This document shows positions 34,231 through 54,696 of a stretch of 58,947 nucleotides of DNA, one piece after another. Position 1 is the first letter of the stretch, and every line of letters starts with the position of its first letter. Made by a program: the position numbers and the translations under genes. This DNA is from Acetobacteraceae bacterium. Lineage in GTDB: Bacteria; Pseudomonadota; Alphaproteobacteria; Acetobacterales; Acetobacteraceae. The DNA lies in NCBI GenBank assembly GCA_019750465.1, contig JAIEOP010000376.1, positions 1-58,947 of the forward strand, read 5' to 3'. Under the pieces are notes generated by a model. It made no database searches. It was not told the DNA's origin and worked only from the letters and a program-made list of their open reading frames with translations.

Positions 34231-34241
34231 ACGGAACCCGC

Positions 34242-35925
34242 TCAGCCCTCGGGCTTCACCGCGACGAGCTCGGCGGCGCGCTCGGCGGCGTCGTGGAAGG
34301 GCAGCAGCACCAAGTCCGCGCCGCGCCCCAGCAGCTCGTTGCGTTCGGACCGCCCATGCGCGGTGACCGCGATCCTGCCGCCGAACCGCTCTCCGCGCAG
34401 CGCCGAGATCAGAGCCAGGCGATGGTCCTCGTGGGTCAGCCCGCCAGCATGGCTCGGGATGGCGGAGATCGCCCAGCGCGCACGCCCGAGCGGCAGCGTG
34501 GCGACGAGTTCGGGATCCGTTGCGTCGCCATAGACCGCCTCGAAGCCGCGGCGGCGCCAGGCCGCGCACCGCCTCGGGGTCGAAATCAACCCCCAGAACC
34601 GCCAGGCCGCGCGCGCGCAGGCGCTCGGCGATCGCCCGGCCAAAACGGCCGAGCCCGAAGATCACCACATCGGGCGCGGCCGCCGCCTCGGCCGCCATGC
34701 CGCCCGTCTCGGCCGCCTCGCGCCAGGGGTGATTTCGCTCGAAGTTCCGCAGCGGCCGGTCGAACCAGGCGGCGAGCCGATGCGAATGCGTGATCATGTA
34801 GGTCGACAGCGCGATGGTGATGAGGCCGATCAGCGTCACCAGGCCGAGTGCCGGTTCCGCCACATGCCCCAGCGCGACGCCCATCGCCATCAGGATCAGC
34901 GAGAATTCGCTGATTTGCGCCACCGTCAGCCCAGCAAGGAAGCCGGTTCGCCGCCGGTAGCCCATCGCCCCCATGATCGCGACGACGATCAGCGGATTGC
35001 CCACCAGCACGAACACCGAGAGCACCGCCGCAGCGCCCAGCTGCTCGCCCATCGCGCCGAGGTCAAGCCGCGCACCGAGCGCGATGAAGAAGAACAGCAG
35101 CAGGAAGTCGCGCAACGCCGACAGCCGCGCGGCGATCGCCTCGCGGAACTGGGTGGAGGCCAGCGCGACGCCGGCGAGTAGGCCGCCGATCTCCTTGCCG
35201 ATCCCGAGGGCGTCGCCGAGCGCCGCCAGCAACGCGGCCCAGCCGATGGCGAAGCCGGCCAGCAGTTCCGGCGCGCGGGCCAGCCGCGCCATCAGCGGCT
35301 CGGCGGCGAAGCGGATCACCAGGCCGACCAGCAGCAGCATCGCCGCCCCGCCCGCCGCGACGCGCAGCAGCCCGCCCAGCGCCGACACCTCGCCCACGCC
35401 CGCCGCCAGGGCCGAGACCACCACCATGGCGAGCACCACGACGATGTCCTGCACGATCAGGAAGCCGAGCGCGATGCGCCCGTGCAGGCTGTCGATCTCG
35501 CGCTTGTCCGACAGCAACTTGACGATGATGATGGTGCTCGAGAAGGTCAGCGCCACCGCGACATAAATGCTGGTCACGGCGTCGAGCCCGAGCAGCAGAC
35601 ACAGGCCGAAGCCGACCACCGCGGTGAAGGTCACCTGGCCGAGCCCGGTGGCGAGCGCCACGGCGCCGAGGCTTCGAATCAGGCCGATATCGAGCTTGAG
35701 GCCGACCAGGAACAGCAGCACGGCGATGCCGAGCTCGGCCAGCAGGTCGATGTGCTCGTCCGAGCGCGCCACGCCGAGCACCGCGGGTCCCGCGATGATG
35801 CCAGCGCCGATCAGCCCGACGATCAGCGGCTGGCGCAGGAACAGCGCGGCCAGTCCGGCCGCGGCGCCGAGCGCCAGCAGGGCGGCGACCTCGTAGAACA
35901 CCGAGGCCGCGATCAGTTCCACCAA
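34242..35925 (-). pseudogene. KefB/CPA2-type cation:proton antiporter with a frameshift in the RCK domain
   Basis: The first 460 residues encode a complete CPA2 membrane domain (LAELGIAVLLFLVGLKLDIG, then ALTFSSTIIIVKLLSDKREI and QISEFSLILMAMGVALG). A TrkA-N/RCK start follows (VVIFGLGRFGRAIAERLRAR, then VDFDPEAVR). At about 34558-34564 an extra base in a GC run shifts the frame. The proper continuation is in another frame (RRGFEAVYGDATDPELVATL to a stop at 34242). Uncorrected, the product would carry an Arg-rich tail running to 34054. The gene may be inactive in its regulatory domain, or this may be a sequencing error. K+ or Na+ exchange for protons is the family function. Confidence 0.82.
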
Positions 35926-35954
35926 GACTCAGGCCCCCGCGCCGGATCGCGTTC

Positions 35955-36854
35955 TCATCGCGGCGTCTCGGGCGGCACGGCGAGCGCGTCGCAGCGCACG
36001 GCGGCCAGCACCTCGGCGGCGACGCTGCCCAGGACCGCGCGGCGCAGGAGGCTGGCGCCGGCGGTGCCGATGACCAGAAGGTCGGGGCGCGAATGCTCCA
36101 CCGCCTGTTTGACGACCGTTGCCGCCCGCCCCGCCACGACGCGCTGCTCGGGCCGGTAGGGCAGGCCGAGCGCCGCGACGAAACCCGCCAGTGCGGCGGC
36201 GGCCTCGCGTGCCGAATCGGCCTCGTGCGCCGCCACCGCGGCCGCCGGTACGTCGGCCAGTGCCAACGCCCCAAGGCCGGGCGGCTCGAAGACGTGCAGC
36301 AGCGTCAGCCGTGCCTGGTCGAGCAATCCGAGTCGTACTGCGGCACGCAGCGCGCGCGCCGCATGCTCGGAAAGGTCGGTGGCGGCGAGCACGTGGCGGT
36401 AGGGGCCCGCCGGCGCCCGGTTCACCATCAGTACCGGGCGGCAGCCGTGGCGCATGACCCGCTCGACCGTGGTGCCGGCGAAGATGTCGCGCAGCGGCCG
36501 GCGCCGGTGCTCGCCGAGCACGATGAGCTCGGCCTCCCACGTTTCGGCGGCGCGCAGGATCGCCTCAAAGGGATCGCCTTCCTCGATCAGCGGGAGAACG
36601 GGATGCGCCGACGCCTGTCCGAGCGCAGCCACCTGCTCGCGGAGGATCGCCGATGCCTCGCGACGTTCAGCCTCGACGAGGCGCCGCGGCTGGTCATCGT
36701 CGAGCGCGTGCAGCACGAGCAACTCGGCGCCTGCCCCGGCGGCGATGAGCGCGGCGCGGCGCAGCGCGCGGTCGGCGCGCGACGAAAGATCGGTGCCGGC
36801 GAGGATCCGCCGGAGAGCGGTCCCTGGATCGACGTTGCCAACAGAAACCGACAT
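35955..36854 (-). CDS. Tandem-domain universal stress protein
   Basis: The 299-residue protein has two Usp domains. The first spans about residues 14-145 (RRILAGTDLSSRADRALRRA, later GEHRRRPLRDIFAGTTVERV), the second about 150-295 (HVLAATDLSEHAARALRAAV, later GTAGASLLRRAVLGSVAAEV). The nucleotide loop in the second domain is less canonical. It lies 29 bases upstream of the KefB-like gene on the same strand, so the two are probably one operon. The pairing of a usp gene with a cation antiporter fits a stress-homeostasis module. Confidence 0.9.
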   Translation of the reverse strand: MSVSVGNVDPGTALRRILAGTDLSSRADRALRRAALIAAGAGAELLVLHALDDDQPRRLVEAERREASAILREQVAALGQASAHPVLPLIEEGDPFEAILRAAETWEAELIVLGEHRRRPLRDIFAGTTVERVMRHGCRPVLMVNRAPAGPYRHVLAATDLSEHAARALRAAVRLGLLDQARLTLLHVFEPPGLGALALADVPAAAVAAHEADSAREAAAALAGFVAALGLPYRPEQRVVAGRAATVVKQAVEHSRPDLLVIGTAGASLLRRAVLGSVAAEVLAAVRCDALAVPPETPR

Positions 36855-37022
36855 CTGCCTATGCCTTCAATTGCCTCGACGCTGCTCTACGAGGCGCCGA
36901 CAGGTCGTCCAAGCCATCTGGTGCTGCGCCCCCACGCAGGCGACAGCGCGCCGCACGCCGGGCGTTTCGGCTCGTGGGCGGAGCCCTGGCGCGATGCCGC
37001 CCGCCGTCATCGGCTGCCTCCG

Positions 37023-37658
37023 TCACCACCAGCCCAGCGCCACGACCGCGAGATGCAGCGCATAGAGCGCGCCTGCATTGATGGCCAGGACCCATGCCAG
37101 CGCCAGCAAGCCGAGGCAGAGAGCGATGAGAACCGCCAGGCCATCACGCGCCAGCAGGCCGAGACCGAGCAGTATCAGCGCGATACCGGGGGGCGGATTG
37201 CCGAACGGCACCGGGAGGATGAGGGCGAAGCCCAGCAGGACGATGCTCACCCCGAGCAGCGGTCGGGCGGCCGCGCCGGCGAGCCAGCGCAGCCGCCCCG
37301 GCCTCAGCCATCGCTCGATCCGCTCCACCCGCGGCAGCGCGCGCCGGAACACGGCGGCGAGGGCGTCGCGAGGCAGGCCGATGCGCAGCAGCGCGCCCGG
37401 CAGCCTGAGCCGCGTTGCGCCCAGACCGAACTCCACGCCGATGAGCATCAGGAGCGTTCCCATCACCGGGCCGGTGGGCAGGAAGGGTATCGGCAGCACC
37501 GAGGGGAGCGCCAACAGCACCACCGCCAGCGGCACGCCCGTCGAGCCCAGGCCGTCCAGCAGCATGCCGATTGTGGTCGCCTGCCCGACCTCGGCCTGGG
37601 CCATGACACGGCGCACCGCCATTGACGCCGGGCGGTAGGATGTCCCGCTCATCGCCAT
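37023..37658 (-). CDS. exoD: ExoD-family membrane protein
   Basis: The 211-residue protein starts at 37658 (MAMSGTSYRP; a second ATG two codons later is possible). It has the ExoD pattern GMLLDGLGSTGVPLAVVLLA followed by a LPSVLPIPFLPTGPVMG segment, and PVPFGNPPPGIALILLGLGL. About five membrane segments are present. ExoD was described in rhizobial exopolysaccharide production and alkali sensitivity; its biochemical role is not settled. It lies upstream of the usp gene, separated by 168 bases. The link to alkaline growth fits the Mrp antiporters of the island. Confidence 0.82.
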   Translation of the reverse strand: MAMSGTSYRPASMAVRRVMAQAEVGQATTIGMLLDGLGSTGVPLAVVLLALPSVLPIPFLPTGPVMGTLLMLIGVEFGLGATRLRLPGALLRIGLPRDALAAVFRRALPRVERIERWLRPGRLRWLAGAAARPLLGVSIVLLGFALILPVPFGNPPPGIALILLGLGLLARDGLAVLIALCLGLLALAWVLAINAGALYALHLAVVALGWW

Positions 37659-38324
37659 GGTGAACGACGAACCGTGCCCTCCTCGCCTTGCCCGCCTGCG
37701 CCGCGCCTGCCGCCGGCCGGTCCGCCGCCGGAGCCCGGCCAAGCGCCGATCGTCATCGGCGAATCGTGGCGCACAGAGGTCTGCATGCAGGCTCATGCGC
37801 TGGCCTGCTGGCCGCTTGCGCCGGTCCAGGCCGGCGCAAGCGGCGGCGGATTTCAGCTTCGGCTCCGGGTGGGAGAGTTGGATGCGCGCCGACCGGCCCG
37901 GCCTGAGCAAGGCGTTCCAAGCGCTGACCACCGGCCCGGCGGTGGGTTGGGTTCGCGCGCTCCGTGACGCCATGCCGCCCGGGCCGGAGGAGGTGGTCGT
38001 TCAGGCTCCCGGCGGGCGGCATCGCCGCCATCGCCGCCGCCCGGATGTGCGAGCCGGTGCGGCCTTCCCCCTCGCCCGGCACCGGGCTGAGGCTGGTGCA
38101 CTCGGTCATCGCCCACTCGCTGTCTTTCATCTTCGACATATGGGTCATGCGCGCCCTGGCGGAAGCCGTGCTGCCAATCCCGGTGGGGGAGGTCCTGCTG
38201 CAACACCGGGCAATAACGGCGGCGCGAGTGAAGGCGGCACTTCAGGCCGGCGAGCCCGAATGGGCGGAAAAAGAATCGCCGGAGCGGCAGTCATGACAAG
38301 GCCCGCCCCGCTCCGGCGCCACCC
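37659..38324 (+). other. 666 bp with open but unassigned frames, possibly a decayed gene
   Basis: On the plus strand one frame reads protein-like ADFSFGSGWESWMRADRPGL to about 38010. A second frame continues IAHSLSFIFDIWVMRALAEA and VLPIPVGEVLLQHRAITAAR to a TGA at 38294-38296. This could be one gene broken by a frameshift near 38010. Neither part matches a family I know. It converges on the alcohol dehydrogenase gene. Confidence 0.35.
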
Positions 38325-39407
38325 TCAGGGCGTGATCGCGACCTTCATCACCCCGTCCCGCTGGTGGCTGAACAGGTCATAGGCCTCGACGATCCGGTCG
38401 AGCGTGAAGCGGTGCGTCACCAGCGGCTTGAGGTCGAGCCGCCCGTTCGCGATCACCTCCATCAGTCGCCGCATGCGTTCCTTGCCGCCGGGGCACAGAG
38501 TGGTGACGATGGTGTGGTCCCCGAGGCCGGCGGCGAAGGCATCGTGCGGGATGGTGAGGTCGGTCGAATAGACGCCGAGCGAGGACAGCGTTCCGCCTGG
38601 CCGCAGCACGCGCAGCGCGCCCTCGAAGGTGGATTGCGCGCCGAGCGCCTCGATCGCCACATCGACGCCGCGGCCGTCGGTCAGGCGCATGATCTCCTGC
38701 ACCGGGCCGGCCTTGGAGAAATCCACCACATGATCGGCGCCGAGGCTGCGCGCGATGGCGAGACGCTCGGGCACGCGGTCCACGACGATGATGGTGGTGG
38801 CCCCCATCAGCTTCGCGCCAGCGGTGGCGCACAGCCCGATCGGCCCCTGGGCGAAGACCGCGACCGCGTCGCCGATCTGCACCTTGCCGCTTTCCGCTCC
38901 CGAGAAGCCGGTGGACATGATGTCGGGGCACATCAGCACCTGTTCGTCGGTCAGTTCGTCCGGCACCGGGGCGAGGTTGGCCATGGCGTCGGGCACCAGC
39001 ACGTATTCCGCCTGGCAGCCATCGATCGTGTTGCCGAAGCGCCAGCCGCCCATCGGTCGCCAGCCATGCTTCGTGCCGGCGCCGTCCTGGCTGCACGTGC
39101 CGCACAGGCAGGCATTGGACCAGCCGGAGGGGGTGATGGCGCCGGCGATGACGCGCTGGCCCTCGCGATAGCCCCTCACGCCGGAACCCAGGCGCTCGAT
39201 CACGCCGACCGGCTCGTGGCCGATCGTCAGGCCCTCGGCGACGGGATACTCCCCTTTCATGATGTGCACGTCGGTGCCGCAGATCGTCGTGGTGGTGATG
39301 CGCAGCAGCGCATCCTGCGGCCCGATCTCGGGGACGGGCTTCTCGCGCAGCTCGATCCGGCCGGGCTCGACGAAGACGGTGGCCTTCATGGTCTTGGGCA
39401 TCGGCAT
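38325..39407 (-). CDS. Zinc-dependent alcohol dehydrogenase (secondary-alcohol type)
   Basis: The 360-residue medium-chain dehydrogenase shows TICGTDVHIMKGEYP with zinc ligand C43, GHEPVG with H64, and CPDIMSTGFSGAE with D162. This C-H-D set is typical of clostridial and Thermoanaerobacter secondary alcohol dehydrogenases. The coenzyme loop is FAQGPIGLCA, followed by VVDRVPERL. A Cys cluster (C100, C102, C105) sits in the structural lobe region. It is the last gene of the HTH-CBS/BON-ADH operon (gaps of 47 and 29 bases), behind an FNR-like box. Redox balancing at low oxygen would fit. Confidence 0.9.
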   Translation of the reverse strand: MPMPKTMKATVFVEPGRIELREKPVPEIGPQDALLRITTTTICGTDVHIMKGEYPVAEGLTIGHEPVGVIERLGSGVRGYREGQRVIAGAITPSGWSNACLCGTCSQDGAGTKHGWRPMGGWRFGNTIDGCQAEYVLVPDAMANLAPVPDELTDEQVLMCPDIMSTGFSGAESGKVQIGDAVAVFAQGPIGLCATAGAKLMGATTIIVVDRVPERLAIARSLGADHVVDFSKAGPVQEIMRLTDGRGVDVAIEALGAQSTFEGALRVLRPGGTLSSLGVYSTDLTIPHDAFAAGLGDHTIVTTLCPGGKERMRRLMEVIANGRLDLKPLVTHRFTLDRIVEAYDLFSHQRDGVMKVAITP

Positions 39408-39436
39408 GTCCTCCGGGAGGTGGCGTCGGCGGGCGC

Positions 39437-40129
39437 TCAGCGCGCCCCGAGCAGGAACGGCGGCGGCGCGGTGAAATCGGTTTCCACGCGCTTGACGCCG
39501 GGCAACCCCTCGGCCAGCACCCGCAGGGCGCGGCGGATATCCTCCGACCCGCAGAAGCCGTGCAGGCGCACGACGCCGTCCGCGACATCGAAGAACATCA
39601 GCTGCCTGTCGAACCAGGGCTGCTCGCGCAGCGCGGCGGACAGGGCGCGCCGGATCTCGGCGTCCGACCGGGCGAGGGCCGTTCCGGTCTCGTCGATGAT
39701 GAGGGCGCGCAGCAGGTCAGCGCGCGAGACGACGCCCACCAGGACGCCATCGCGCAGCACCGGCACGCGACGTACCCCGCGCGATTCCATGATGTGCGCG
39801 ATCTGTTCGGCCGTCGCATCCTCGTCCACGCTCGCGACGTCCAGGGTCATGGCATCCTTCACGGTGCGGCCACGGACCCGGGCGAAGCGCGCGGCATCCT
39901 CCTCCGCTGCGCGGAACATGCGGGCGAACCAGCCGGATTTCGGCGCCGCCGCATCGGCGAGGCGGCGTATCAGGTCGCCCTCGGTGATGATGCCGACCAG
40001 CAGCCCGTCCTCCCGCACCACCGGCGCGCCCGAGACGCCGCGCTCGGCCATCGCGCGCGCGGCGGCTTCCAGGCCCATATCCGGCACGAAGGTCAGCAGG
40101 CCGGTCGACATCAGATCACGCGCGAGCAT
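39437..40129 (-). CDS. CBS-CBS-BON domain protein
   Basis: The 230-residue protein has two CBS domains, at residues about 5-60 (RDLMSTGLLTFVPDMGLEAA, GIITEGDLIRRLADAA) and about 88-145 (VKDAMTLDVASVDEDATAEQ, GVVSRADLLRALI). A BON domain follows at about 155-222 (GVVRLHGFCGSEDIRRALRV). Such proteins are thought to sense adenine nucleotides and are common in low-oxygen and dormancy clusters. It lies between the HTH gene and the alcohol dehydrogenase gene in one operon. Confidence 0.92.
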   Translation of the reverse strand: MLARDLMSTGLLTFVPDMGLEAAARAMAERGVSGAPVVREDGLLVGIITEGDLIRRLADAAAPKSGWFARMFRAAEEDAARFARVRGRTVKDAMTLDVASVDEDATAEQIAHIMESRGVRRVPVLRDGVLVGVVSRADLLRALIIDETGTALARSDAEIRRALSAALREQPWFDRQLMFFDVADGVVRLHGFCGSEDIRRALRVLAEGLPGVKRVETDFTAPPPFLLGAR

Positions 40130-40176
40130 TTCGATTCTCCATTCTGCGACCCCCGCCTTTTGGAGGTCGGCATGCG

Positions 40177-40476
40177 TCAGTGGTTGCGCCGGGCGTCCTG
40201 GGGCTCGGACGCGTCGGCCGGCAGATCCGGCGCCGCCTCGCCCTGGGACCCAGGCATCGCGGCCGTTCCGTCGGCGGCATCGTCCGGGAATGCGGCCACG
40301 CGTCGGGTTTCATGCGTGGCGAGAAAAGCCTCGAGGTCGCGAGGGATGATCCGCCACTCGCGTCCCAGAGCGATGGCCCTCAGTTCCCGCAGCTTGATCC
40401 AGTGACGGACGGTGGCCTCCGACACCTGGACCAACTCGGCGACCTCCCTCACGGTCAGGAACCGCCGCGTCAGCAT
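40177..40476 (-). CDS. Excisionase-like helix-turn-helix protein
   Basis: The 99-residue protein carries FLTVREVAELVQVSEATVRH followed by a WIKLRELRAIALGREWRI segment, the MerR/excisionase-type HTH used by small DNA-binding proteins. The acidic tail is rich in Pro and Ala. The ATG at 40476 has GGGAGGGG nearby. It is the first gene of the operon with the CBS-BON protein and alcohol dehydrogenase, and the FNR-like box centre lies about 72 bases before its start. It may act as a local regulator rather than a true excisionase, as no integrase is adjacent. Confidence 0.8.
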   Translation of the reverse strand: MLTRRFLTVREVAELVQVSEATVRHWIKLRELRAIALGREWRIIPRDLEAFLATHETRRVAAFPDDAADGTAAMPGSQGEAAPDLPADASEPQDARRNH

Positions 40477-40541
40477 CACGCCCCTCCCGTGTCGACACTT
40501 GTCAGGCCCGGCAGAGTTGCCACGAGCGCCGCCGGCCGGCA

Positions 40542-40555
40542 TTGACCTGCATCAA
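40542..40555. promoter_or_regulatory. FNR-type palindrome before the HTH-CBS-ADH operon
   Basis: TTGACCTGCATCAA matches the FNR/CRP-like consensus TTGAT-N4-ATCAA at nine of ten defined positions. It lies upstream of the HTH gene (minus strand) and just behind the end of the acyl-ligase gene. It shares its spacer CTGC with the second box at 43471. The likely binders are the host FnrL/FixK-type proteins or the Crp/Fnr protein at 30344-31072. Confidence 0.7.
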
Positions 40556-40594
40556 CCCTACCTGGGCTGGATCGAGCGCATCCGAGCGCCCGCG

Positions 40595-43273
40595 TCATCC
40601 GGCATCCTGCGCGCGGATCGCCGCCGCGATCCGCGTCCGGAGCGCATTCACGATCCGCCGCGCCTCGGCCTCGCCCACGCCTTCCGCGGCCAACTCGGTG
40701 GGCGTGCAAGGGGCGAGGAACTCCACCGAGAGGCGGCGGAACCGCGGCAGCCGGCGTGATCGCGGCCACGCCTCGACGGTCCCGCGCAGCACCACCGGCA
40801 CCACCGGGATGTGGTTGCGGTGCGCGAGGAGCACGCCGATGCCGGCCTTGAACGGCTGCAATTGCCCGTCGGCGGACCGGATGCCCTCGGGGAACCAAGC
40901 GAGCCCATGGCCGCGCTGCAGCGCCGCACTACCGAAGGCGATGCTAGCCGCGGTCGCGCGCCCGTCGTCCACCGGAAGGATGCCGGCGATGCGGGCGAAG
41001 GCGCGGCGTAGCGGTCCGGCGACGATGAGCCGACTCCAGCCCGCCCAGTACATCCGCTCGAGCCGCGCCGCGTCCAGCGCGGCGGCGATCGCGAAGGGGT
41101 CAAGATAGCTCGCATGGTTGGGCACGAGCACGAAGGGGCCGTTGGCGGGAAGCGCCTCGACGCCGCGCACGCTAAGCCCGAACAGCCGGCGGAACACCAG
41201 GCGGTTCGCCGCCGCGAGCACGCGGCCGGCGATCCGCTGGCCGGTGCCGCGCGGTTCCAGCCAGCGGAGCCCGTCCTCGCCCAGCACGCGCTCCGGCTCC
41301 TCGAGCGGCAGCCGCGCATCGGCTCCGGCATCGCCGCCCTCGGCCACCCGCACCAGCAGGTCGCGTACGGTGCGGATCTCGCCGATCGTCGCGTCGGACA
41401 ACGTGACGCCAGCCTGGTCGGCGATGTCGAGGGACAGGTCGAGCCAGCCAATCGAGTCGATCCCGAGATCGAGCTGGAGGTCGCTGTCGGGCCCGACGCG
41501 GCGATCGGCGAACCTCTCGCCGAGCATCCGGAGCACCGTCTGCGCCGTGTCGTGTTCGAGCAGCGCCCGGTCGTCGGCCGAAAGAGTCTCGATCGGCACG
41601 AGGCCGCTCGCGCGGCCGCGTTCCTCGCGCCCCGCCTCCCCGGCGCGCGCATAGGCCTGCACGATGAGCTGGCGGCGCGGCTTGCCCAGCCGGGTGCGCG
41701 GGATGGGCTCGGCGGTCAGGCGGTACTCGGCGATGCGCTGGTAGGATGGCAGGGCGCGCGCGACCTCGCGCACGACCTCGCGGATCGCCGCCTCGCCCCC
41801 GTCCTCGGCCCGCGCGGCGCGCGCCGGCACGATCAGCCCGGCGAGGCGGCCGTCGTGCTGGAGGACCGCGATCTCCTCGATCGCCGGATGCGCCTGGTAG
41901 GCCTCCTCGATCTCCTCGGGCTGCAGGTTCTTGCCGCCTTCGGTGACGATCAGCGTCGAGCGCCGACCGGTGAGGCGGAGCCAGCCCGTCTCGTCGATCC
42001 GGCCGAGATCGCCGGTGCGGAACCAGCCATCCGCGGTGAAGGCCTCTGCCGTCTTCTGCGGCAGCGCATGATAGCCTGCAAACACGCCCGGACCGCGGGC
42101 CAGGACCTCGCCCTCGGCGTTGCCCTCCGCCGCGCCCTCGATCCGCAGCTCGGTCTCCGGGGCCACGCCGCCGACGGTCTCGAAGCGCATCGCGCCCGGC
42201 GGGTGGATGGTGAGCATAGGCGAGGTCTCGGTGAGCCCGTAGCCGCTCGCCACCTTCCAGCCGAGCGCCTCCATCGCCCAGGCGGTCTCGGGCCGCAGCG
42301 CGGCGCCGCCGGAGACGACAATGCGCAGGGTGGGTCCGAGCCGGCGGTGCAGCGGGGCGAACAGCGTCGGCCCGATGCGCCAGCCGAAGCGCCGGCGCAG
42401 CAGGCGCGACAGCCCGAGCGCGGCGCTGAACAGCGCCTGCGCCGCACCGCCGCCCCGCCGCATCCGCTCGGCGAGCGCGCCGACCAGGGCATCGAACAGC
42501 CGCGGCACGCCGATCATCACCGTCGGCCGGCCAGATTGCAGCGCGGCGACCACTTGCGTACCGGTGAAGCCCGCCGGAAGCACGACGGCGATGCCGGCGG
42601 AGAGCGGCGTGAGCACGCCGATCACCAGCGGATAAACATGGTGCATCGGCAGCGGGAGCAGCACACGGTCATCGGGCGACGCGATGCCCGTGCCGGCGAG
42701 CACGCGGAGCTGGTAGATCAGGTTCCCGTGCGTCAGCGGCACGCCCTTGGGCGGCCCGGTGGTTCCCGACGTGTAGAACAGGATCGCGCGATCCTCGGGA
42801 CCGACGCGCGCGAAGGTGACCTCTCGGCTGTCGTCCGGCGCGTCGTCCTGGGCCAGCGCCAGCGCGCGCACGCCCCGCTGCTCGAGCGGCCTGCGCAGCC
42901 TCAACGCCGAGGATTGCGCGACCAGTGCGATACGCGCCCCGCTGTCGCACAGCACGTGGCGGAAGCTCTCGGCGCCGAGCGTCGCGTCCACCGGTACCAC
43001 GCAGGCGCCGCAATGCAGGATGGCGAGGCAGGCCATGATCCAGTCGGCGCCGCCCGGCCCGCAGAGGATGACCGCATCGCCCGGCCCGACACCCGCATGG
43101 ACGAGACCGCGCGCCCGGCGCTCGACCTCGGCGGCGAGATCGCGGTAGCTGATCAGCCGCATCCGATTCGCCTCGAAGGCGACGATCGCGTCGCGCCACC
43201 CGCCCTGCGCGAGGTCATGCACCGCGGCCTGCAGTGTCGGCGGCAACGCGCGGAGCCCAAGGTTGGTTATCAT
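40595..43273 (-). CDS. Acyl-ligase, acyl carrier and acyltransferase fusion protein
   Basis: The 892-residue protein has three domains. Residues 1-540 are an AMP-forming acyl-CoA/ACP ligase, with the P-loop FYTSGTTGPPKGVP at 167-180 and GYGLTETSPMLTIHPPGAM. Residues about 570-645 are an acyl carrier domain, with LGIDSIGWLDL and a predicted phosphopantetheine Ser607. Residues about 680-890 are a PlsC-type acyltransferase, with H720 and D725 in NHASYLD and FPEGIRSADG. This layout suggests activation of a fatty acid, loading on the fused carrier, and transfer to a lipid acceptor at the membrane. The FNR-like box at 43471 lies upstream, shared with the divergent usp operon. Confidence 0.88.
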   Translation of the reverse strand: MITNLGLRALPPTLQAAVHDLAQGGWRDAIVAFEANRMRLISYRDLAAEVERRARGLVHAGVGPGDAVILCGPGGADWIMACLAILHCGACVVPVDATLGAESFRHVLCDSGARIALVAQSSALRLRRPLEQRGVRALALAQDDAPDDSREVTFARVGPEDRAILFYTSGTTGPPKGVPLTHGNLIYQLRVLAGTGIASPDDRVLLPLPMHHVYPLVIGVLTPLSAGIAVVLPAGFTGTQVVAALQSGRPTVMIGVPRLFDALVGALAERMRRGGGAAQALFSAALGLSRLLRRRFGWRIGPTLFAPLHRRLGPTLRIVVSGGAALRPETAWAMEALGWKVASGYGLTETSPMLTIHPPGAMRFETVGGVAPETELRIEGAAEGNAEGEVLARGPGVFAGYHALPQKTAEAFTADGWFRTGDLGRIDETGWLRLTGRRSTLIVTEGGKNLQPEEIEEAYQAHPAIEEIAVLQHDGRLAGLIVPARAARAEDGGEAAIREVVREVARALPSYQRIAEYRLTAEPIPRTRLGKPRRQLIVQAYARAGEAGREERGRASGLVPIETLSADDRALLEHDTAQTVLRMLGERFADRRVGPDSDLQLDLGIDSIGWLDLSLDIADQAGVTLSDATIGEIRTVRDLLVRVAEGGDAGADARLPLEEPERVLGEDGLRWLEPRGTGQRIAGRVLAAANRLVFRRLFGLSVRGVEALPANGPFVLVPNHASYLDPFAIAAALDAARLERMYWAGWSRLIVAGPLRRAFARIAGILPVDDGRATAASIAFGSAALQRGHGLAWFPEGIRSADGQLQPFKAGIGVLLAHRNHIPVVPVVLRGTVEAWPRSRRLPRFRRLSVEFLAPCTPTELAAEGVGEAEARRIVNALRTRIAAAIRAQDAG

Positions 43274-43470
43274 GCCGTCCCATACGTCATACGCCGTCGA
43301 CGCGCAGCGCCACCACGCACTGCTGCGTGCGAAACCGCACGCAGTCGCCGACAAGGGCATCGGATACGCAGCCGCCTCGGCGATGAGGAGACGCCGCGTA
43401 AGCCCTGCGCTCCACGCCCGTTAACGCTCGTCAGGCTGCGGCGTGCGTCCGCGAGCCCGATCGGCTGGGA

Positions 43471-43484
43471 TTGATCTGCATCAA
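43471..43484. promoter_or_regulatory. Perfect FNR-type palindrome between divergent operons
   Basis: TTGATCTGCATCAA is an exact TTGAT-N4-ATCAA site in the 422-bp gap between the divergent acyl-ligase (43273, minus) and usp (43696, plus) genes. A class II arrangement would put a plus-strand start site near 43519, leaving a leader of about 175 bases. Only this gap and the one at 40542 contain such sites by eye. No other gene is visible in the gap. Confidence 0.75.
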
Positions 43485-43695
43485 TGCTCGTTAAACGTCG
43501 TTGCGTGCATTTGGGCGCCGTCGGCCAGGGAGGCGCAGCGGTCCCGGGCCGATGGCAAGGCCAGCCACGGACGGACAAAGCGGCGTGCGAACGAGACACG
43601 ACGCGGCGGTTGGGACGCGTGCCGTGCACTTGAAAACCCGCCTCGTGCGAGCCTCATGCGTGGGGTGCAAATCGATCGTGAAGGAGCCTGAGAAC

Positions 43696-44520
43696 GTGGG
43701 TTATACGACAATAGCGCTGCATGTGGAGCCGGACACGCTGGGCGCGGTGGATGCGTCCATTGCGCTGCCACTGGCCCTGGCGGAGGTGCATGCGGCGCAC
43801 GTTGCCGCACTGGTTTTCGCGGCGAGTGTCTATCGCCCCGAGCCGGCCGGCGGCGACGCCGAGATGTCGGAGAACGCTCTGGCGGCGCGCGAGGACGGTG
43901 TGCTGCTGCATGTCCGGGCGGCGCTCGAGGCGCGCGGCCTGCGCTTCGAGGTGCGCGGCCGCAGCAGCTTCGCCTACGGCATCGGGGAGGTCCTCGCGGA
44001 CCAGATGCGGGTCAGCGACCTCGGTATCATGTCCTTCGGGTCGGGCGCCGACATCGGCAAGCGCTTCGTCGCCAGCGGCGGCATCTTCTCGTCCGGACGC
44101 CCGATGCTGCTCGTGCCGCCCAGCCACGCCACCGCGTCGCCGCCGTCGCGCGCCATCGTTGCCTGGGATGCCTCGACTGCCGCGGTGCGCGCGGTGCATG
44201 GCGCGCTGCCGCTCCTGAAGCGGGCGGATTCGGTGACCGTCGTGAGCGTCACCGACGACAAGGAATTCCGTCCGGGGCAGTCGGCGGTCGAACTGACCCA
44301 CCTGCTGGCACGGCACGGCGCGAAGGCTGACTTCCGGCCCGTGCAGCGCGGCAGTGGCGGCGTGACGCGCGCCATCCTCGACGCCGCGCGGGAGGCCCAG
44401 GCCGACCTGCTGGTGATGGGCGCCGTCCGCCATGCGCCGCTGCACAATCTGGTGTTCGGCAGCGCGACGATGGACCTGCTCGACCAGGGGCCGACGCTGC
44501 CGACGCTGCTGGCCGCATAG
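43696..44520 (+). CDS. Universal stress protein
   Basis: The GTG at 43696 (VGYTTIALHVEPD) has AAGGAG at a good distance and gives 274 residues. The C-terminal half (about 155-274) is a clear UspA domain: SRAIVAWDASTAAVRAVHGA, then LLVMGAVRHAPLHNLVFGSA with the G....GS loop. The N-terminal half is a more distant Usp-like fold. It is the first gene of a plus-strand operon with the P-type ATPase, PsiE, patatin and GntP-type genes, downstream of the FNR-type box. Confidence 0.85.
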   Translation: MGYTTIALHVEPDTLGAVDASIALPLALAEVHAAHVAALVFAASVYRPEPAGGDAEMSENALAAREDGVLLHVRAALEARGLRFEVRGRSSFAYGIGEVLADQMRVSDLGIMSFGSGADIGKRFVASGGIFSSGRPMLLVPPSHATASPPSRAIVAWDASTAAVRAVHGALPLLKRADSVTVVSVTDDKEFRPGQSAVELTHLLARHGAKADFRPVQRGSGGVTRAILDAAREAQADLLVMGAVRHAPLHNLVFGSATMDLLDQGPTLPTLLAA

Positions 44521-44610
44521 GCAGACCGGTCATCCGAGTGGTGGGCAGGTCGGGTCCAGCCGCGCACCACTGGACGACACTTCGGACCACGACCATCGAG
44601 GAGAGGTGGC

Positions 44611-47358
44611 ATGTCGCTTCCGCCAGGCCCGGCACCGCCGCGCGCACAAAACGGAGGCGGCGCCGGCTGGCATAGCCTGGCGACGGAGCAGGCTTTGGGC
44701 CGTCTTGGTGCGGCGCCGGGCGGCCGCACGCGCGGGGAGGCCCCCCCGCGCCACGCCCAGTACGGCCCGAACACGCTGCCCGCGGCCGCGCCGCGCAGCG
44801 CGTTCCGGCGCTTCCTCGCGCAGTTCAACCACCTGCTGATCCAGGTCCTGATCGCCGCAGCGGCCATCACCGGGGTACTCGGCTACTTCAAGGACGCCAT
44901 CGTCATCCTGAGCGTGGTGCTGGTGAACGCCACCGTCGCCTTCATCCAGGAAGGCCGCGCAGAGCAGGCGCTCAATGCCATCCGCGACATGCTCAGTCCG
45001 ACCGCTTCCGTGCTGCGCGACGGCGCACGGATCACCGTGGACGCGGCCGATCTCGTGCCTGGCGACGTGGTGCTGCTCGAGCCGGGCGAGCGCGTTCCCG
45101 CCGACCTCAGGCTGCTGCGCGCGCGCGGCCTGCGTGTCGAGGAGGCGGCGCTGACGGGCGAATCGGTGCCGGTGGACAAGACGGCCGATCCCGTGGCGGC
45201 GCACGCGCCGCTCGCCGACCGGACCTCCATGGCCTTCTCGGGAACGCTGGTCGCCGCGGGGCAGGGCATGGGCGTCGTCGTCGCCATCGGCCCGGCGACC
45301 GAGATCGGCCGCATCAGCGGCATGATCGGTGCCGTGCAGACGCTAACGACGCCGCTTCTACGCCAGATGAACCTGTTCGCCAGGCGGCTTACCGGGATCA
45401 TTCTCGGACTGGCGGTCCTGATCTTCGCCTTCGCTTGGCTCTTCCGCGGTTTCGGCGCCGAGGAAGCCTTCATGGCCGTGGTCGGCATCGCGGTGGCCTC
45501 CATCCCCGAGGGGTTGCCGGCGGTGATGACCATCACGCTCGCGATCGGCGTGCGGCGCATGGCGGCGCGCAACGCCATCGTGCGGCAATTGCCGGCGGTC
45601 GAGACTCTCGGCGCCGTTTCCGTCATCTGCTCCGACAAGACCGGCACGCTGACCCGAAACGAGATGGCGGTCGCGGTCATCGACTCCGATTTCGGCCGTT
45701 TCGAGGTCTCGGGCTCGGGCTATGCGCCCGGCGGCAGCGTCACCCTGGCCGGCGAGACGCCAGGCCCCGCCGCACTGGCGTTACTGCAGGAACTCGCGCA
45801 GGGCGTCACGCTGTGCAACGACGCTGCGCTGCGCGAGCAGCCGGACGGCAGCTGGACGGTGGCGGGCGACCCGATGGAGGGGGCGATGCTCGCCTTCGCC
45901 GCCCGGGCCGGTCTGGCGCCCGAGACGGCGCGGCTGCGCCATCCGCGGCGCGACGAGATCCCCTTCGACAGCCGCCACCGCTACATGGCGACGCTGCACG
46001 CCGGCCACGACGCTGCCTTCGTCTGCGTCAAGGGCGCGCCGGAACGGGTCTTGGCCATGTGCGCCGCCGTCCGGCGGGAAGACGGCACCGCGCCGCTAGA
46101 CGCCTCCTCCTGGCGTGCCCGGGCCGAGGCGCTGGCCGCCGACGGGCTGCGTGTCATTGCCGTCGCCACCAGGGCCGACCGGCCGCACGGCACCGACACC
46201 CTGGCGCCGGCCGACATCGAGGGCGGGCTCGTGCTGCTGGGGCTGCTCGGGCTGATCGACCCGCCGCGCGAGGAGGCGATCGCCGCGGTGGCAGAATGCC
46301 AGGCCGCCGGCATCCGCGTGAAGATGATCACCGGCGATCACGCCGCGACCGCGAGCGCGATCGCGCGCCAGGTCGGGTTGCGCGGCGCGGGGTCGGTGGT
46401 CACCGGCGCCGAGCTCGACGCGCTCGACGACGCGACGCTACGTGTGCGCGTGTTGGAGAGCGATGTCTTCGCCCGCACCAGCCCCGAGCACAAGCTGCGC
46501 CTGGTCGAGGCGCTGCAGGCCGGGGGCGCCGTCGTCGCCATGACCGGCGACGGGGTGAACGACGCCCCCGCACTCAAGCGCGCCGATGTCGGCGTGGCGA
46601 TGGGCCGCAAGGGCACCGAGGCAGCCAAGGAAGCGGCCGAGATGGTGCTGGCCGACGACAACTTCGCCACTATCGCCGCCGCCGTGCGGGCCGGGCGCAC
46701 GGTCTACGACAACCTCACCAAGACCGTGACCTTCCTGCTGCCGATCAACGGCGGCGAGGCGATGAGCATCGTGCTGGCGATCCTGCTCGGCACGCAGCTG
46801 CCGATCACGCCGACGCAGATCCTGTGGGTGAACATGGTGAGCTCGGTCGCACTCGCGCTCACCCTCGCCTTCGAGCCGACCGAGCCCGGCACCATGCGCC
46901 TGCCGCCGCGCCCGGCCGGCCAGCCGCTGCTCACCGGCTTCGTGGTCTGGCGCATCGTCTTCGTCTCGCTGCTGTTCTTCGGCTGCGTCTTCGGCATGTT
47001 TAAATACGCCACCGCGCAGGGGCTGCCGGTCGAGACGGCGCGGACCATGGCCGTCAACACACTCGTGGCGGCCGAAGTCGCCTATCTGTTCAGCGTGCGC
47101 TACCGGCACGGTGCTTCGTTGAGCTGGCGCGGCATGCTCGGCACCCGGGCCGTGCTGATCGGCGTCGCGGCGGTCATCGTCCTGCAGTTGCTTTTCACCT
47201 ACGCGGCGCCCATGCAGTTGCTGTTCGCGTCCCGCCCGCTGGATCCGCTTGCGGAAGGGTTGCCCGTGTTGGCGGTCGCGGTGTTGATCTTCGCGCTGCT
47301 CGAGATGGAGAAATGGGCGATACGTCGCTTGCGCCCCTTGGTCGTGTCTGCTGCCTGA
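44611..47358 (+). CDS. P-type cation-transporting ATPase (P2 type, Ca2+-like)
   Basis: The 915-residue pump has all P-type marks: TGES near residue 182, the phosphorylated Asp342 in DKTGTLT, TGDGVNDAP at 645-653, and a membrane helix 4 with AVASIPEGLPAVMTI. The PEGLP motif and the C-terminal six-helix half are those of P2-type ATPases that move Ca2+, Na+ or K+. The N terminus is a cation-ATPase N domain after a glycine-rich leader. It follows the usp gene by 90 bases with GGAGAGG before the ATG. A similar pairing of a usp gene and a P2 ATPase occurs in oxygen-responsive dormancy regulons. Confidence 0.93.
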   Translation: MSLPPGPAPPRAQNGGGAGWHSLATEQALGRLGAAPGGRTRGEAPPRHAQYGPNTLPAAAPRSAFRRFLAQFNHLLIQVLIAAAAITGVLGYFKDAIVILSVVLVNATVAFIQEGRAEQALNAIRDMLSPTASVLRDGARITVDAADLVPGDVVLLEPGERVPADLRLLRARGLRVEEAALTGESVPVDKTADPVAAHAPLADRTSMAFSGTLVAAGQGMGVVVAIGPATEIGRISGMIGAVQTLTTPLLRQMNLFARRLTGIILGLAVLIFAFAWLFRGFGAEEAFMAVVGIAVASIPEGLPAVMTITLAIGVRRMAARNAIVRQLPAVETLGAVSVICSDKTGTLTRNEMAVAVIDSDFGRFEVSGSGYAPGGSVTLAGETPGPAALALLQELAQGVTLCNDAALREQPDGSWTVAGDPMEGAMLAFAARAGLAPETARLRHPRRDEIPFDSRHRYMATLHAGHDAAFVCVKGAPERVLAMCAAVRREDGTAPLDASSWRARAEALAADGLRVIAVATRADRPHGTDTLAPADIEGGLVLLGLLGLIDPPREEAIAAVAECQAAGIRVKMITGDHAATASAIARQVGLRGAGSVVTGAELDALDDATLRVRVLESDVFARTSPEHKLRLVEALQAGGAVVAMTGDGVNDAPALKRADVGVAMGRKGTEAAKEAAEMVLADDNFATIAAAVRAGRTVYDNLTKTVTFLLPINGGEAMSIVLAILLGTQLPITPTQILWVNMVSSVALALTLAFEPTEPGTMRLPPRPAGQPLLTGFVVWRIVFVSLLFFGCVFGMFKYATAQGLPVETARTMAVNTLVAAEVAYLFSVRYRHGASLSWRGMLGTRAVLIGVAAVIVLQLLFTYAAPMQLLFASRPLDPLAEGLPVLAVAVLIFALLEMEKWAIRRLRPLVVSAA

Positions 47359-47397
47359 TTGCCACCCCCGCCATCGCCCCAACAAGAAGGACCCGAC

Positions 47398-47892
47398 ATG
47401 GCGCCGGAGCAGGAACCCCTCATTGACCGGCTGCAATACGTCATCCGCATGTGTGTCCGCGCCATGGCGGTCATGATGATCTTCGTGATCATCATGGGCG
47501 TCGTGGATATCGGCTGGGTGATCTGGCAACGTTTGGCATCGCCGCCGCGCTTCATCCTTACCATTGCCGACATGCTGGCGACCTTCGGCGCCTTCATGGC
47601 CGTGCTGATCGCCATCGAGATCTTCGTCAACATCACGATCTACCTGCGCGAGGAGGTCATCCACATCAAGATCGTCATCGCCACCGCCCTGATGGCAGTG
47701 GCGCGGAAGGTGATCATCCTCGACCAGGAGAAGACCGAGCCACTGGAGATTTTCGCACTGGCAGTTCTCGTCATTGCGACGGGTGTCGGTTACTGGCTGG
47801 TCCAGAACACGCCGTCGGTCAGCGTGCGAGCGGCACGGGAGGACACCGCCGAGAGGCCGCCCGCCCGGCGCGACCGCGGCCCCGGCGCTTGA
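47398..47892 (+). CDS. psiE: PsiE-family membrane protein
   Basis: The 164-residue protein has four membrane helices (VRAMAVMMIFVIIMGVVDIG, MLATFGAFMAVLIAIEIFVN and others) and the PsiE pattern LREEVIHIKIVIATALMAVA followed by RKVIILD. PsiE proteins were first described as phosphate-starvation inducible; their activity is unknown. The ATG at 47398 has AGAAGG upstream. It lies 39 bases after the ATPase gene, and its stop overlaps the TTG start of the patatin gene. Confidence 0.88.
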   Translation: MAPEQEPLIDRLQYVIRMCVRAMAVMMIFVIIMGVVDIGWVIWQRLASPPRFILTIADMLATFGAFMAVLIAIEIFVNITIYLREEVIHIKIVIATALMAVARKVIILDQEKTEPLEIFALAVLVIATGVGYWLVQNTPSVSVRAAREDTAERPPARRDRGPGA

Positions 47893-48998
47893 CCGCCGGC
47901 CCGCCACCCGGCACCGCAACGCCGCCGGTCCGGCTCGAACTCGCACTGCAGGGCGGCGGTGCGCATGGCGCCTTCACCTGGGGCGCGCTCGACCGGTTGC
48001 TCAACGAAGAGGGCATCGAGATCGTCGCGATCAGCGGCGCGAGCGCCGGCGCGGTCAATGCCGTGCTGCTGGCGCACGGGCTGATGCAGAGCGGCCGCCA
48101 AGCGGCCCAGCGCGCCCTGTGGCAGTTCTGGAAGAATGTGAGCCGCGCAGCGCAGGCAGCACGGCTCGCGGCCGGCCCCTTCGGCGCGGTCTTCGGGCAG
48201 GCAGGCGCGCCGCCGCCCGAATGGGCGCCCTTCGCGCTGTGGTCCGCCACGCAGGCCGCGTGGCGCGCCTTCGCCGAGACGGCGGTCGGCGGGTTCGGCG
48301 GCAACAGCACATTGGGCCAGGAACTCAACCCACTGCGCCGACTGCTGGCCGAGGCGGTGGATTTCGATCGCCTGCGCGCGGCCGACGCGCCGCGGCTGTT
48401 CCTCTCGGCGACCGACGTCGCGACCGGCGCGCTGCGCGTCTTCCGCAACGCCGACCTGACCCCCGAGTCGGTGCTGGCTTCGGCCTGCCTGCCGCAGCTG
48501 TTCCGCGCCGTCGAGATCGACGGCCGCGCCTACTGGGATGGCGGCTATCTCGCCAACCCTCCGCTGGCGCCGCTGATCGCCGAATCCGATGCGAATGACC
48601 TGCTGATCGTCCAACTCACCCCGCAGGAACGCCGTGCCGCGCCGCACGGCGCCACCGCGATCGCGGGGCGGCTGAACGAGATCGTCTTCAACGCGAGCCT
48701 GGTGAACGAATTGCGCGCGATCGGCGCGCTCCAGCGCGCGCTGGCGGCGGGCGGCGGGGCGGGTGTGGGCGCCGAGCCCCTGTTCGTCCGGCTCGGTGCC
48801 CTGCGGCTGCACCGGATCAGCGCCGACGAGAGCGTCTTCGCCCCCGGTGACGTGGCGCGCCTGCCCGAATGGTCCTATCTGCAGCGCCTGCACCAGCGGG
48901 GCTTCGACGCCGCCGGGCAATGGCTCGCGCGCCACCGCGCCGATCTCGGCCGGCGCGCCACGCTGGCCGTCCCGCCCGACGCCGGAATGCTGCCTTGA
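47889..48998 (+). CDS. Patatin-like phospholipase
   Basis: The 369-residue protein has LELALQGGGAHGAF (oxyanion hole), the nucleophile in ISGASAGAVNAVLLA (GxSxG) and the catalytic Asp in YWDGGYLANPPLAP. These are the patatin Ser-Asp dyad parts, in order. The start is a TTG inside a TTGA overlap with psiE, as no ATG is in frame near the domain. It is expected to hydrolyse lipids in the cytoplasm or at the membrane. It overlaps the next gene in the same TTGA manner. Confidence 0.85.
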   Translation: MTAGPPPGTATPPVRLELALQGGGAHGAFTWGALDRLLNEEGIEIVAISGASAGAVNAVLLAHGLMQSGRQAAQRALWQFWKNVSRAAQAARLAAGPFGAVFGQAGAPPPEWAPFALWSATQAAWRAFAETAVGGFGGNSTLGQELNPLRRLLAEAVDFDRLRAADAPRLFLSATDVATGALRVFRNADLTPESVLASACLPQLFRAVEIDGRAYWDGGYLANPPLAPLIAESDANDLLIVQLTPQERRAAPHGATAIAGRLNEIVFNASLVNELRAIGALQRALAAGGGAGVGAEPLFVRLGALRLHRISADESVFAPGDVARLPEWSYLQRLHQRGFDAAGQWLARHRADLGRRATLAVPPDAGMLP

Positions 48999-50434
48999 GC
49001 GGCATCCTCGGCATCCTCGCCGCGCTGGCGCTGCTGGTCCTGCTCGCCTATCGCGGGGTCAGCGTGCTGGTCGCCGCCCCGCTCGCCGGCCTGGCCGCGG
49101 TGCTGGCGGCGGGGGCGCCGGCGCTGGCCTCGCTCACCCATGTCATGATGCCCGCGCTCGGCGGCTTTCTCGCGCAGTTCCTCGCGCTGTTCGTGCTCGG
49201 CGCCATCTTCGGCAAGCTGATGGAGGAGACCGGCGCGGCGCGCGCCCTGGCCGCGGCGCTGGCGGCGCGGCTCGGTCCGGCCAACGCCATCCCCGCGGTG
49301 GTGCTCGCCTGCGCGGCGCTGACCTATGGCGGGGTTTCGCTGTTCGTCGTCGCCTTCGCGGTGCAGCCGCTGGCCACGGAGCTGTTCGCCCGCGCCCGCC
49401 TGCCGCGCGCGCTGATCCCGGCGACCATCGCGCTCGGCGCCTTCACCTTCACCATGACGGCGCTGCCCGGCACGCCGGCGATCCAGAACGCCATCCCGAT
49501 GCCCTTCTTCGGCACCACCGCCTTCGCCGCCCCCGGGCTCGGGCTGATCGGCGGCGCGGTGATGCTGGGCTTCGGTCTCGCCTGGCTGCTGTGGCGGGCG
49601 CGGCGCGGCCGCTTCGCCGCCGATCCGCCGGAACCGCCCCCGCCTGCCGCGGCACGGCTGCGCGAAATGGCGCAGGGCGAGGGCTTCGACATCGCCGAGG
49701 CGCTGCGCGATGGCGCGCCTGCCGCACCGGCGCCGCCGCTGGCACTGGCCGCTGCGCCGATCCTGCTGGTGGTGGCGCTGAACGGCGTCTTCGCCGGCCT
49801 GGTCCTGCCCGCCCTGCTGGCCGGGCAGCCGGCCGATCCGCGCCTGGGCGCGACGGATCCGGCGAACCTGATCGGGTATTGGGCGATCCTGCTCGCGCTC
49901 GCCGCCACCATCGTGCTGACCGTGCTGGCCAATCTCCGCCGCCTGCCGCGGCTGACCGAGACCCTTGGCGCCGGCGCCAACGCCGCGGCGATCCCGGCGC
50001 TCAATACGGCGGTGCTGGTGGGTTTCGGCGCCGTGGTCGCCTCGCTGCCGGCCTTCGGGCTGGTGCGCGACGCGGTGCTCGGCATCGCGCCGGGCAATCC
50101 GCTGATCTCGCTCTCGATCGCGGTGAACATCCTGGCCGGAATCACCGGCTCGGCTTCGGGCGGGATGAGCATCGCGCTCGCCACCATGGGCGAGACCTAT
50201 CTCGCGCGCGGGCTCGCCGCCGGCATCGCGCCCGAGGCGCTGCACCGGGTCACCGCCATCGCCACCGGCGGGCTCGATGCGCTGCCGCACAACGGCGCGG
50301 TGGTCACGCTGTTGGCGGTCTGCCGGCTGACCCACCGCGAGGCCTATGCCGACATCTTCGCCGTCGCCTGCGCCGGGCCGATCCTGGCGCTGGTGGTCGT
50401 GCTCGTCCTCGCCGGGCGGTTCGGCGCGTTCTGA
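48995..50434 (+). CDS. GntP-family permease
   Basis: The 479-residue protein has about twelve to fourteen membrane segments and GntP-like segments: LFVLGAIFGKLMEETGAARA, LACAALTYGGVSLFVVAFAV and ITGSASGGMSIALATMGETY. The family imports gluconate or related hydroxy acids with protons; the substrate here is unknown. It starts with TTG overlapping the patatin stop. It is the last gene of the plus-strand stress operon and converges on the Na+/Ca2+ exchanger gene. Confidence 0.82.
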   Translation: MSGILGILAALALLVLLAYRGVSVLVAAPLAGLAAVLAAGAPALASLTHVMMPALGGFLAQFLALFVLGAIFGKLMEETGAARALAAALAARLGPANAIPAVVLACAALTYGGVSLFVVAFAVQPLATELFARARLPRALIPATIALGAFTFTMTALPGTPAIQNAIPMPFFGTTAFAAPGLGLIGGAVMLGFGLAWLLWRARRGRFAADPPEPPPPAAARLREMAQGEGFDIAEALRDGAPAAPAPPLALAAAPILLVVALNGVFAGLVLPALLAGQPADPRLGATDPANLIGYWAILLALAATIVLTVLANLRRLPRLTETLGAGANAAAIPALNTAVLVGFGAVVASLPAFGLVRDAVLGIAPGNPLISLSIAVNILAGITGSASGGMSIALATMGETYLARGLAAGIAPEALHRVTAIATGGLDALPHNGAVVTLLAVCRLTHREAYADIFAVACAGPILALVVVLVLAGRFGAF

Positions 50435-50445
50435 GCGCGGCCGCC

Positions 50446-51447
50446 TCACGCCGCCGGCCAGATCGACCACACATAGACGGCATAGAGCGCCAGCAGCCCA
50501 GCGCCCTCGCGGCGGCCGATGCGCCAGCCGGTGCGGGCGACGACGAGGAGCAGCACCGATACCATCACCATCACCCAGTTGTCGTAGTTGGCGATCGCCT
50601 CGGGCACCGGCGTCGGCGCGATCAGCGCGGTGATGCCGCCGATCCCGAGGATGTTGTAGATGTTGGAGCCGAGCACGTTGCCCAGCGCCACATCGGCGTG
50701 GCGGCGCAGCGCGGCGACCACCGAGGTGACCAGTTCCGGCATCGAGGTGCCGACCGCGACGATGGTCAGCCCGATCACCGTCTCCGACACGCCGAGGCCG
50801 CGCGCGAGGCCCACCGCGCCGTCCACCAGCAGCCCGCCGCCGAGCACTACCAGCGCGAGCCCGCCGAAGGCGAAGGCGGACGAGATCGCGACCCCCTTCC
50901 AGCCCGCCCGAGGCGCCGAGGCATGGGTCTCGTGCAGGCCGCTCGGGTGAGTTTCCTCGAAGGCCTGCGCCTTCTCGAAGGCGGCGGTGTGGTCCGGTTC
51001 GCCGCGGCTCTCCGCGCGCCAAGCGTAGGCGATGTAGGCGACCAGCCCGAGCAGGAACAGCGTGCCCACCGCGCGGTCGAGGGTGCCGAAGAGGCTGACG
51101 CCGGTGAAGACCAGCGCCACCGCCGCGACGATCGTGCCGTCGCGCCGCAGCGCCCCGCGCCCGACGGCGATCGGCGTGATCAGCGCGGCGATGCCCAGGA
51201 TCACCAGGATGTTGGCGATGTTGGAGCCGACGATGTTGCCCACCGCGATGCCGGGCGAGCCGGCCAGCGAGGCCTTCACGCTGGTCACCAGCTCGGGCGT
51301 CGAGGTGCCGAAGCCGACCAGGGTGAGGCCGATCAGCAGCGGCGACACGCCCATTCGCTCGGCGATCTGCACGGCGCCGCGCACGAACAGCTCCCCGCCC
51401 GCCACCAGCAGGATCAGGCCACCCGCGATCAGAAGAGCGTCGTTCAT
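50446..51447 (-). CDS. Calcium/sodium antiporter (CaCA family)
   Basis: The 333-residue protein has the two inverted alpha repeats of the CaCA family: GFGTSTPELVTSVKASLAG with GNIVGSNIANIL, and AVGTSMPELVTSVVAALRR with GNVLGSNIYNIL. Ten membrane segments are expected. The central loop is charged and histidine-containing (EETHPSGLHETHASAP). It exchanges Ca2+ for Na+ or H+. Between the P2-type ATPase and the Mrp operon it completes a Ca2+/Na+/H+ set. Its start lies 212 bases from the end of mrpG, on the same strand. Confidence 0.93.
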   Translation of the reverse strand: MNDALLIAGGLILLVAGGELFVRGAVQIAERMGVSPLLIGLTLVGFGTSTPELVTSVKASLAGSPGIAVGNIVGSNIANILVILGIAALITPIAVGRGALRRDGTIVAAVALVFTGVSLFGTLDRAVGTLFLLGLVAYIAYAWRAESRGEPDHTAAFEKAQAFEETHPSGLHETHASAPRAGWKGVAISSAFAFGGLALVVLGGGLLVDGAVGLARGLGVSETVIGLTIVAVGTSMPELVTSVVAALRRHADVALGNVLGSNIYNILGIGGITALIAPTPVPEAIANYDNWVMVMVSVLLLVVARTGWRIGRREGAGLLALYAVYVWSIWPAA

Positions 51448-51659
51448 TGGTCGTCCTCATGTTGGCAGGTCCCGATCGGCGGACGGCGCACGAATCCGGC
51501 CCGTGGAGTCTGGGCCGATCCGACGCGCCCTGTCATGCCTGCCATATCGTCTCCCTCGGAAGCGTACGGAAGGCCAAAGGCCCCGCCGCCAGCGAGATGC
51601 CCCGTGTCGGCCCGGAACTGCGCGGGCGCGCGGCTGCGATCGTACTGCAGCACGGACGG

Positions 51660-54660: not shown

Positions 54661-54696
54661 CTTAGAGCCGCCCCGCCCGTGCGAACCGTGCCGCCT

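Follow-up and report, generated by a model that had tools for sequence, protein, structure and literature searches.

Genes for universal stress proteins (Usp), a CBS protein and a CtpF-type P2 ATPase belong to the DosR dormancy regulon of M. tuberculosis, as they do to the block described here, but DosR, a two-component regulator, recognises a box that is unrelated to those found here. For alphaproteobacteria, separate FNR, FixK and DNR regulons have been predicted: the DNR regulon would include a Usp and the genes for nitrate reductase, the FixK regulon a zinc alcohol dehydrogenase (ADH) and a CBS protein; in R. sphaeroides, TTGACctgcATCAA (dksA) is a site bound by FnrL in vivo according to ChIP (PMC2908626). 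Microoxia induces CBS, Usp and AdhP products in Bradyrhizobium, and several of the induced products are FixK2 targets, as we read the table (PMC6515984). The FnrL/FixK regulons (R. sphaeroides FnrL, Bradyrhizobium FixK2; PMC2908626, PMC6515984) thus combine the box type found here with Usp, CBS and Zn-ADH genes, but in the present case the targets are part of a block that is shared horizontally, and a Crp-type palindrome accompanies the box in one promoter region. Since the published regulons hold the same genes, FNR-type control of CBS, Usp and ADH genes is already known biology. The lxa locus of Burkholderia cenocepacia is likewise a strain-restricted, low-oxygen-responsive block with Usp and BON-domain proteins (PMC6127331, PMC3759415). 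We liken it to our block by gene content, but this content differs as far as seen, as ours includes ion transport, an acyl ligase and a P-ATPase.

The window, by which we mean the whole stretch of 58,947 nucleotides that was analysed, is a single contig from the 6.04 Mb genome of an Elioraea-like bacterium, which can be assigned to Acetobacteraceae by its relatives. It contains a block that is common to several genera:

4428..57692, no strand assigned: shared block, 87-95% DNA identity to Neoroseomonas, with two gaps

The sharing covers N. alba and N. eburnea; not shared with Neoroseomonas are an IS66-family element at 17800-20298 and the stretch 52380-54552. Rubritepida flocculans has large parts of the block in two contigs, and a fragmentary Elioraea MAG contains part of the region at 99.7% identity. 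Across genera, DNA identity of the block is 83-95% over tens of kb, and its Crp/Fnr-family regulator (the island regulator) is 97-98% identical at the protein level, compared with 52-58% for the FnrN proteins of the hosts. Because block and regulator are far more alike than host FnrN, the sequences support horizontal sharing of about 50 kb across genera, in agreement with the initial annotation, which had described the region as mobile. The mobile elements seen in the window are the IS66 element and a transposase fragment; the former was inserted in this copy and is absent from the Neoroseomonas and Rubritepida copies. A plasmid search gave no record with most of the block and retrieved relatives of the P-ATPase and ADH genes only. 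The block also has a strong ion-homeostasis theme, with two separate Mrp/Mbh-type antiporter subunit sets (22579-26792 and 52751-57566) and further Na+/H+, Na+/Ca2+ and SNF-type transporters, and it is adjoined by a ChrB-type protein and a chromate transporter gene (1374-3580).

Two palindromes of the form TTGA-N6-TCAA lie among the following genes of the block:

38325..39407, minus strand: Zn-dependent alcohol dehydrogenase (domain match)
39437..40129, minus strand: CBS-CBS-BON protein (domain match)
40177..40477, minus strand: HTH_17 (excisionase-type DNA-binding) protein (domain match)
40542..40555, no strand assigned: box 1, TTGACCTGCATCAA, exact match; candidate FNR-type site upstream of HTH_17, CBS-BON and ADH (minus strand)
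40595..43273, minus strand: fusion of AMP-dependent ligase, carrier domain and acyltransferase, start probably at ATG 43273
43471..43484, no strand assigned: box 2, TTGATCTGCATCAA, exact match; candidate FNR-type site between the divergent ligase and usp genes
43696..44520, plus strand: universal stress protein (start picked from alignment)
44611..47358, plus strand: PMR1/SERCA-type P-type ATPase (domain match)
47359..47892, plus strand: PsiE family protein (domain match)

Box 1 is located about 65 bp upstream of the HTH_17 gene, which is read on the minus strand from an ATG near 40477. Box 2 lies between the AMP-ligase/acyltransferase gene, whose start is likely ATG 43273 because relatives do not keep the reading frame upstream of it, and a series encoding Usp, the Ca-type P-ATPase, PsiE, patatin and a GntP-like protein, the last assigned by a weak match (E = 1e-7). 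The initial annotation had seen low-oxygen or stress functions in the usp, CBS, ATPase and ADH genes, and the occurrence of CBS, Zn-ADH and Usp in published FNR/FixK regulons supports this.

It had also reported two boxes with the same spacer. Both are present exactly, share the spacer CTGC and are the sole TTGA-N6-TCAA sites in the 58,947 bases scanned, while shuffled windows contained 0.07 such sites on average and two sites in 0 of 100 shuffles. Both are intergenic and upstream of genes, and compared with TTGAT-N4-ATCAA, box 2 agrees at 10 of 10 positions and box 1 at 9 of 10. One could argue that such boxes are chance or decayed, functionless sites, since the genome as a whole contains 17 matches against 10 for the reversed control, which means that isolated TTGA-N6-TCAA matches are mostly chance; several of the genomic sites (contexts viewed for 15 of the 17) are inside coding frames and chance-like. 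Two boxes that are both intergenic and within 3 kb of each other are not easily ascribed to chance, however. A class II promoter layout was considered for the boxes and dropped, as the -10 matches were too poor.

Decay might also be read from related islands, in which the two boxes differ in their conservation. Box 1 is kept: it is identical to TTGACCTGCATCAA in N. eburnea and reads TTGACCTGCGTCAA in N. alba. Box 2 is kept in Rubritepida, where both boxes are TTGATGTGCATCAA, but reads TTGATGTACATCAT in Neoroseomonas, with one half-site mismatch in both species. Overall, half-sites are mostly kept in Neoroseomonas and Rubritepida and spacers vary; the conservation of box 2 is unexceptional in its alignment, where 72 of 322 windows score as high. 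Near 30 CBS-BON loci of Acetobacteraceae, TTGA-N6-TCAA occurred seven times within 500 bp upstream of the genes (14.7 kb in total) and not once from the gene start onwards (62.8 kb; binomial p = 9e-6, uncorrected), and it ranked first of 256 gapped tetramer palindromes upstream of these genes. Similar boxes are found in S. meliloti pSymA (TTGATCTCCATCAA, 499 bp upstream of the CBS gene of this plasmid relative), in Chelatococcus pCO-6 (TTGATCCTCGTCAA, 116 bp before an ADH and P-ATPase pair) and in Roseomonas mucosa (CTGATCTGGATCAA, 74 bp before a CBS gene). Intergenic position, two sites in 3 kb, retention with varied spacers and the family-wide enrichment upstream of CBS-BON genes together make chance or decay a highly improbable explanation. 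Box 1 is furthermore identical, letter for letter, to the FnrL ChIP site listed in PMC2908626, and this match, the CBS-BON enrichment and the mostly retained half-sites indicate that boxes 1 and 2 are very probably FNR-type sites, as first proposed.

The genome encodes one four-cysteine FnrN-type protein (C517) with CATCGSRVAGLC (C-x2-C-x7-C, and a Cys at +99) and the recognition helix GLTLETVSR, which is FNR-type and has no Arg before Glu. FnrN of the same type is also present in Rubritepida, N. alba and N. eburnea. TTGA boxes occur in the same genome before ccoN (TTGATCCGGATCAA), before narG (TTGACCTTGATCAA) and before an acetyl-CoA synthetase / DUF485 pair. What the initial annotation had offered as an aside, that a host FnrL-type protein may act on the boxes, thus gains support from the four-cysteine FnrN and from the boxes before ccoN and narG. 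The genome encodes in addition one DNR-like protein (C338, helix PEALSR) with a TTGACCTGCGTCAA box nearby. A DNR/NnrR-type protein of this kind could be the main reader of the TTGA boxes, in which case the signal would be nitric oxide and not oxygen; the box before narG and the prediction of Usp and nitrate reductase genes in the DNR regulon (PMC2908626) would fit. Yet a suitable FnrN is encoded by every named host of the island, and CBS, Zn-ADH and Usp are known from FNR/FixK regulons (PMC2908626) and from the microoxic response (PMC6515984), so that we regard reading by the DNR-like protein as unlikely.

The block brings a regulator of its own, and three further palindromes of another type:

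15729-16919: double-Usp gene, after the ATPase inhibitor zeta gene
16760..17088 (or up to 17125), minus strand: ATPase inhibitor subunit zeta, precedes the double-Usp gene
17410..17423, no strand assigned: GTGCGGTTCCGCAC palindrome, roughly 320 bp ahead of the zeta gene that precedes the double-Usp gene
30344..31129, minus strand: island Crp/Fnr-family regulator with RREAVSR helix, two Cys and replaced cAMP-pocket arginine
31175..31594, minus strand: DUF465 protein, encoded first in the putative regulator operon
31660..31673, no strand assigned: GTGCGGAACCGCAC palindrome ahead of the DUF465 - Crp/Fnr operon, candidate site of autoregulation
43327..43340, no strand assigned: GTGCGAAACCGCAC palindrome, candidate island-regulator operator, 54 bp ahead of the probable ligase start

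With matches to the cNMP-binding (2.2e-9) and HTH_Crp_2 (8.3e-12) domains above the Pfam cut-offs, the island regulator is a member of the Crp/Fnr superfamily. It has two cysteines only and lacks the four-ligand pattern of C-x2-C-x5..7-C plus a distal C, which confirms the earlier view that it is not an Fe-S FNR. Its helix RIGARREAVSRE does contain the E..SR noted previously, but the Arg before Glu (R-R-E-A-V-S-R) had been overlooked; the segment is R-E-A-V-S-R and differs from the FNR-type helix (V/L/P/S-E-x-x-S-R). In this protein family, Arg at the 180 position is reported to accompany a G at position 3 of the DNA site (TGTGA-like); where this Arg is lost, the base is T (TTGA-like) (PMC1274295). 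This rule, applied to the RREAVSR helix, predicts that the island regulator should read GTG and not TTG. The same rule predicts A and not C at position 6 for Glu-181, which counts against GTGCG (PMC1274295). HcpR/CRP-type proteins likewise combine Arg at 180 with GTG half-sites and GTG-N8-CAC spacing (PMC1274295), but the island sites have the inner half-site GTGCG instead of TGTGA, and the canonical cAMP-pocket arginine is missing in the island clade. There, the cAMP phosphate-binding motif is SPSA/PPSA, while most homologues have PRSA or PRAA, and this substitution makes cAMP control of the island regulator doubtful.

The initial annotation had assigned both TTGA boxes to the island protein, which would make the block a self-contained mobile low-oxygen regulon. 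The protein indeed travels with the block at 97-98% identity and has the E..SR in its helix, but the Crp-type Arg points to another half-site, and a TTGA box was found upstream of 0 of 30 homologues. GTG palindromes occurred ten times upstream of regulator homologues and three times elsewhere (p = 1e-4, relatedness uncorrected); 13 of the 30 homologues are without one upstream, and none was found upstream of the paralogue in the same genome (C500). The two motifs also dissociate in nature. One genome (G103) contains CBS-BON-ADH and, at the position of box 1, TTGACTTGAATCAA, a version with a changed spacer; it has no close regulator homologue, and none of the other tested island genes was found in the stretch read. 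In another (G315), the regulator is present (80% identity) and GTGCGTTTCCGCAC precedes the two-gene operon that encodes it; the 27 kb read there contained no TTGA box. TTGA boxes and GTGCG sites therefore occur without each other, and TTGA boxes with CBS-BON genes exist in genomes that lack the regulator. Given the helix, the homologues, a separate family of GTGCG sites and this dissociation, we regard the island regulator as an improbable reader of the TTGA boxes.

GTGCG-N4-CGCAC was first spotted by eye, as GTGCGGAACCGCAC in the alignment upstream of the DUF465-regulator operon, and tested afterwards. The window contains three such sites (0.55 expected), and three of TGCGNAANCGCA (0.26 expected). 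N. alba and N. eburnea retain all three GTGCG-N4-CGCAC sites unchanged, and Rubritepida retains two, with a single mismatch in the remaining one. Each of the two Neoroseomonas genomes (about 6 Mb) contains four GTGCGNWWNCGCAC sites, of which three are in the block, counts that give no independent p value since the copies are orthologous and the motif was picked post hoc. Enrichment is weaker in the window's own genome, where 3 of 15 GTGCGNWWNCGCAC-type sites are in the block. A copy of GTGCGGTTCCGCAC in C461 lies downstream of a gene, where no promoter role is evident, and we ascribe it to chance. Among the homologues, RREVVSRE proteins (one genus) have GTGAN6TCAC upstream and RREAVSRE/RREPVSRE relatives have GTGC-type sites (loci L118, L119, L122, L123, L125, L126 and L130), so helix-site co-evolution at the residue after Glu is possible, with few events. 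Another Usp-like gene (L024, 2831-3670; G000 C274) has TTGAAGCCGATCAA 75 bp upstream, and a truncated island-regulator paralogue lies in its vicinity. The zeta and double-Usp genes with their upstream palindrome could form an energy-saving pair under the island regulator.

Taken together, control by host FnrN at the TTGA boxes, with the island regulator at the GTGCG sites as a separate second input, is the probable arrangement. The oxygen-sensing FnrN/FnrL-type protein of the host would bind both TTGA boxes and, when oxygen falls, activate HTH-CBS/BON-ADH through box 1; through box 2 it would activate usp-ATPase-psiE, the divergent acyl ligase, or both. The island regulator would most likely bind GTGCG-N4-CGCAC and control its own operon. 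One promoter region, that of ligase and usp, holds both a GTGCG palindrome and TTGA box 2, and it is there that the input of the island regulator may meet the FNR input. In this scheme we infer the binding, the direction of regulation, the induction at low oxygen and the signal to which the island regulator responds.

We are evenly divided on the broader picture, in which a transferable block would bring a private regulator of the Crp family, one whose cAMP pocket is degenerate and whose operator is GTGCG-N4-CGCAC, and would also connect to the conserved oxygen sensor of each new host by its TTGA boxes, with portable and host signals integrated at one divergent promoter. The novelty would be this dual input of the block; the FNR wiring itself is ordinary. 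To our knowledge, the RIGxRREAVSR group of Crp-family proteins is widespread and uncharacterised, and for its Acetobacteraceae members GTGCG-N4-CGCAC provides a testable candidate operator. For the biology of the hosts, the block could serve a new one at once, since its promoters have boxes for a regulator already present in the hosts examined, and it would also bring a second regulator for a signal of its own.
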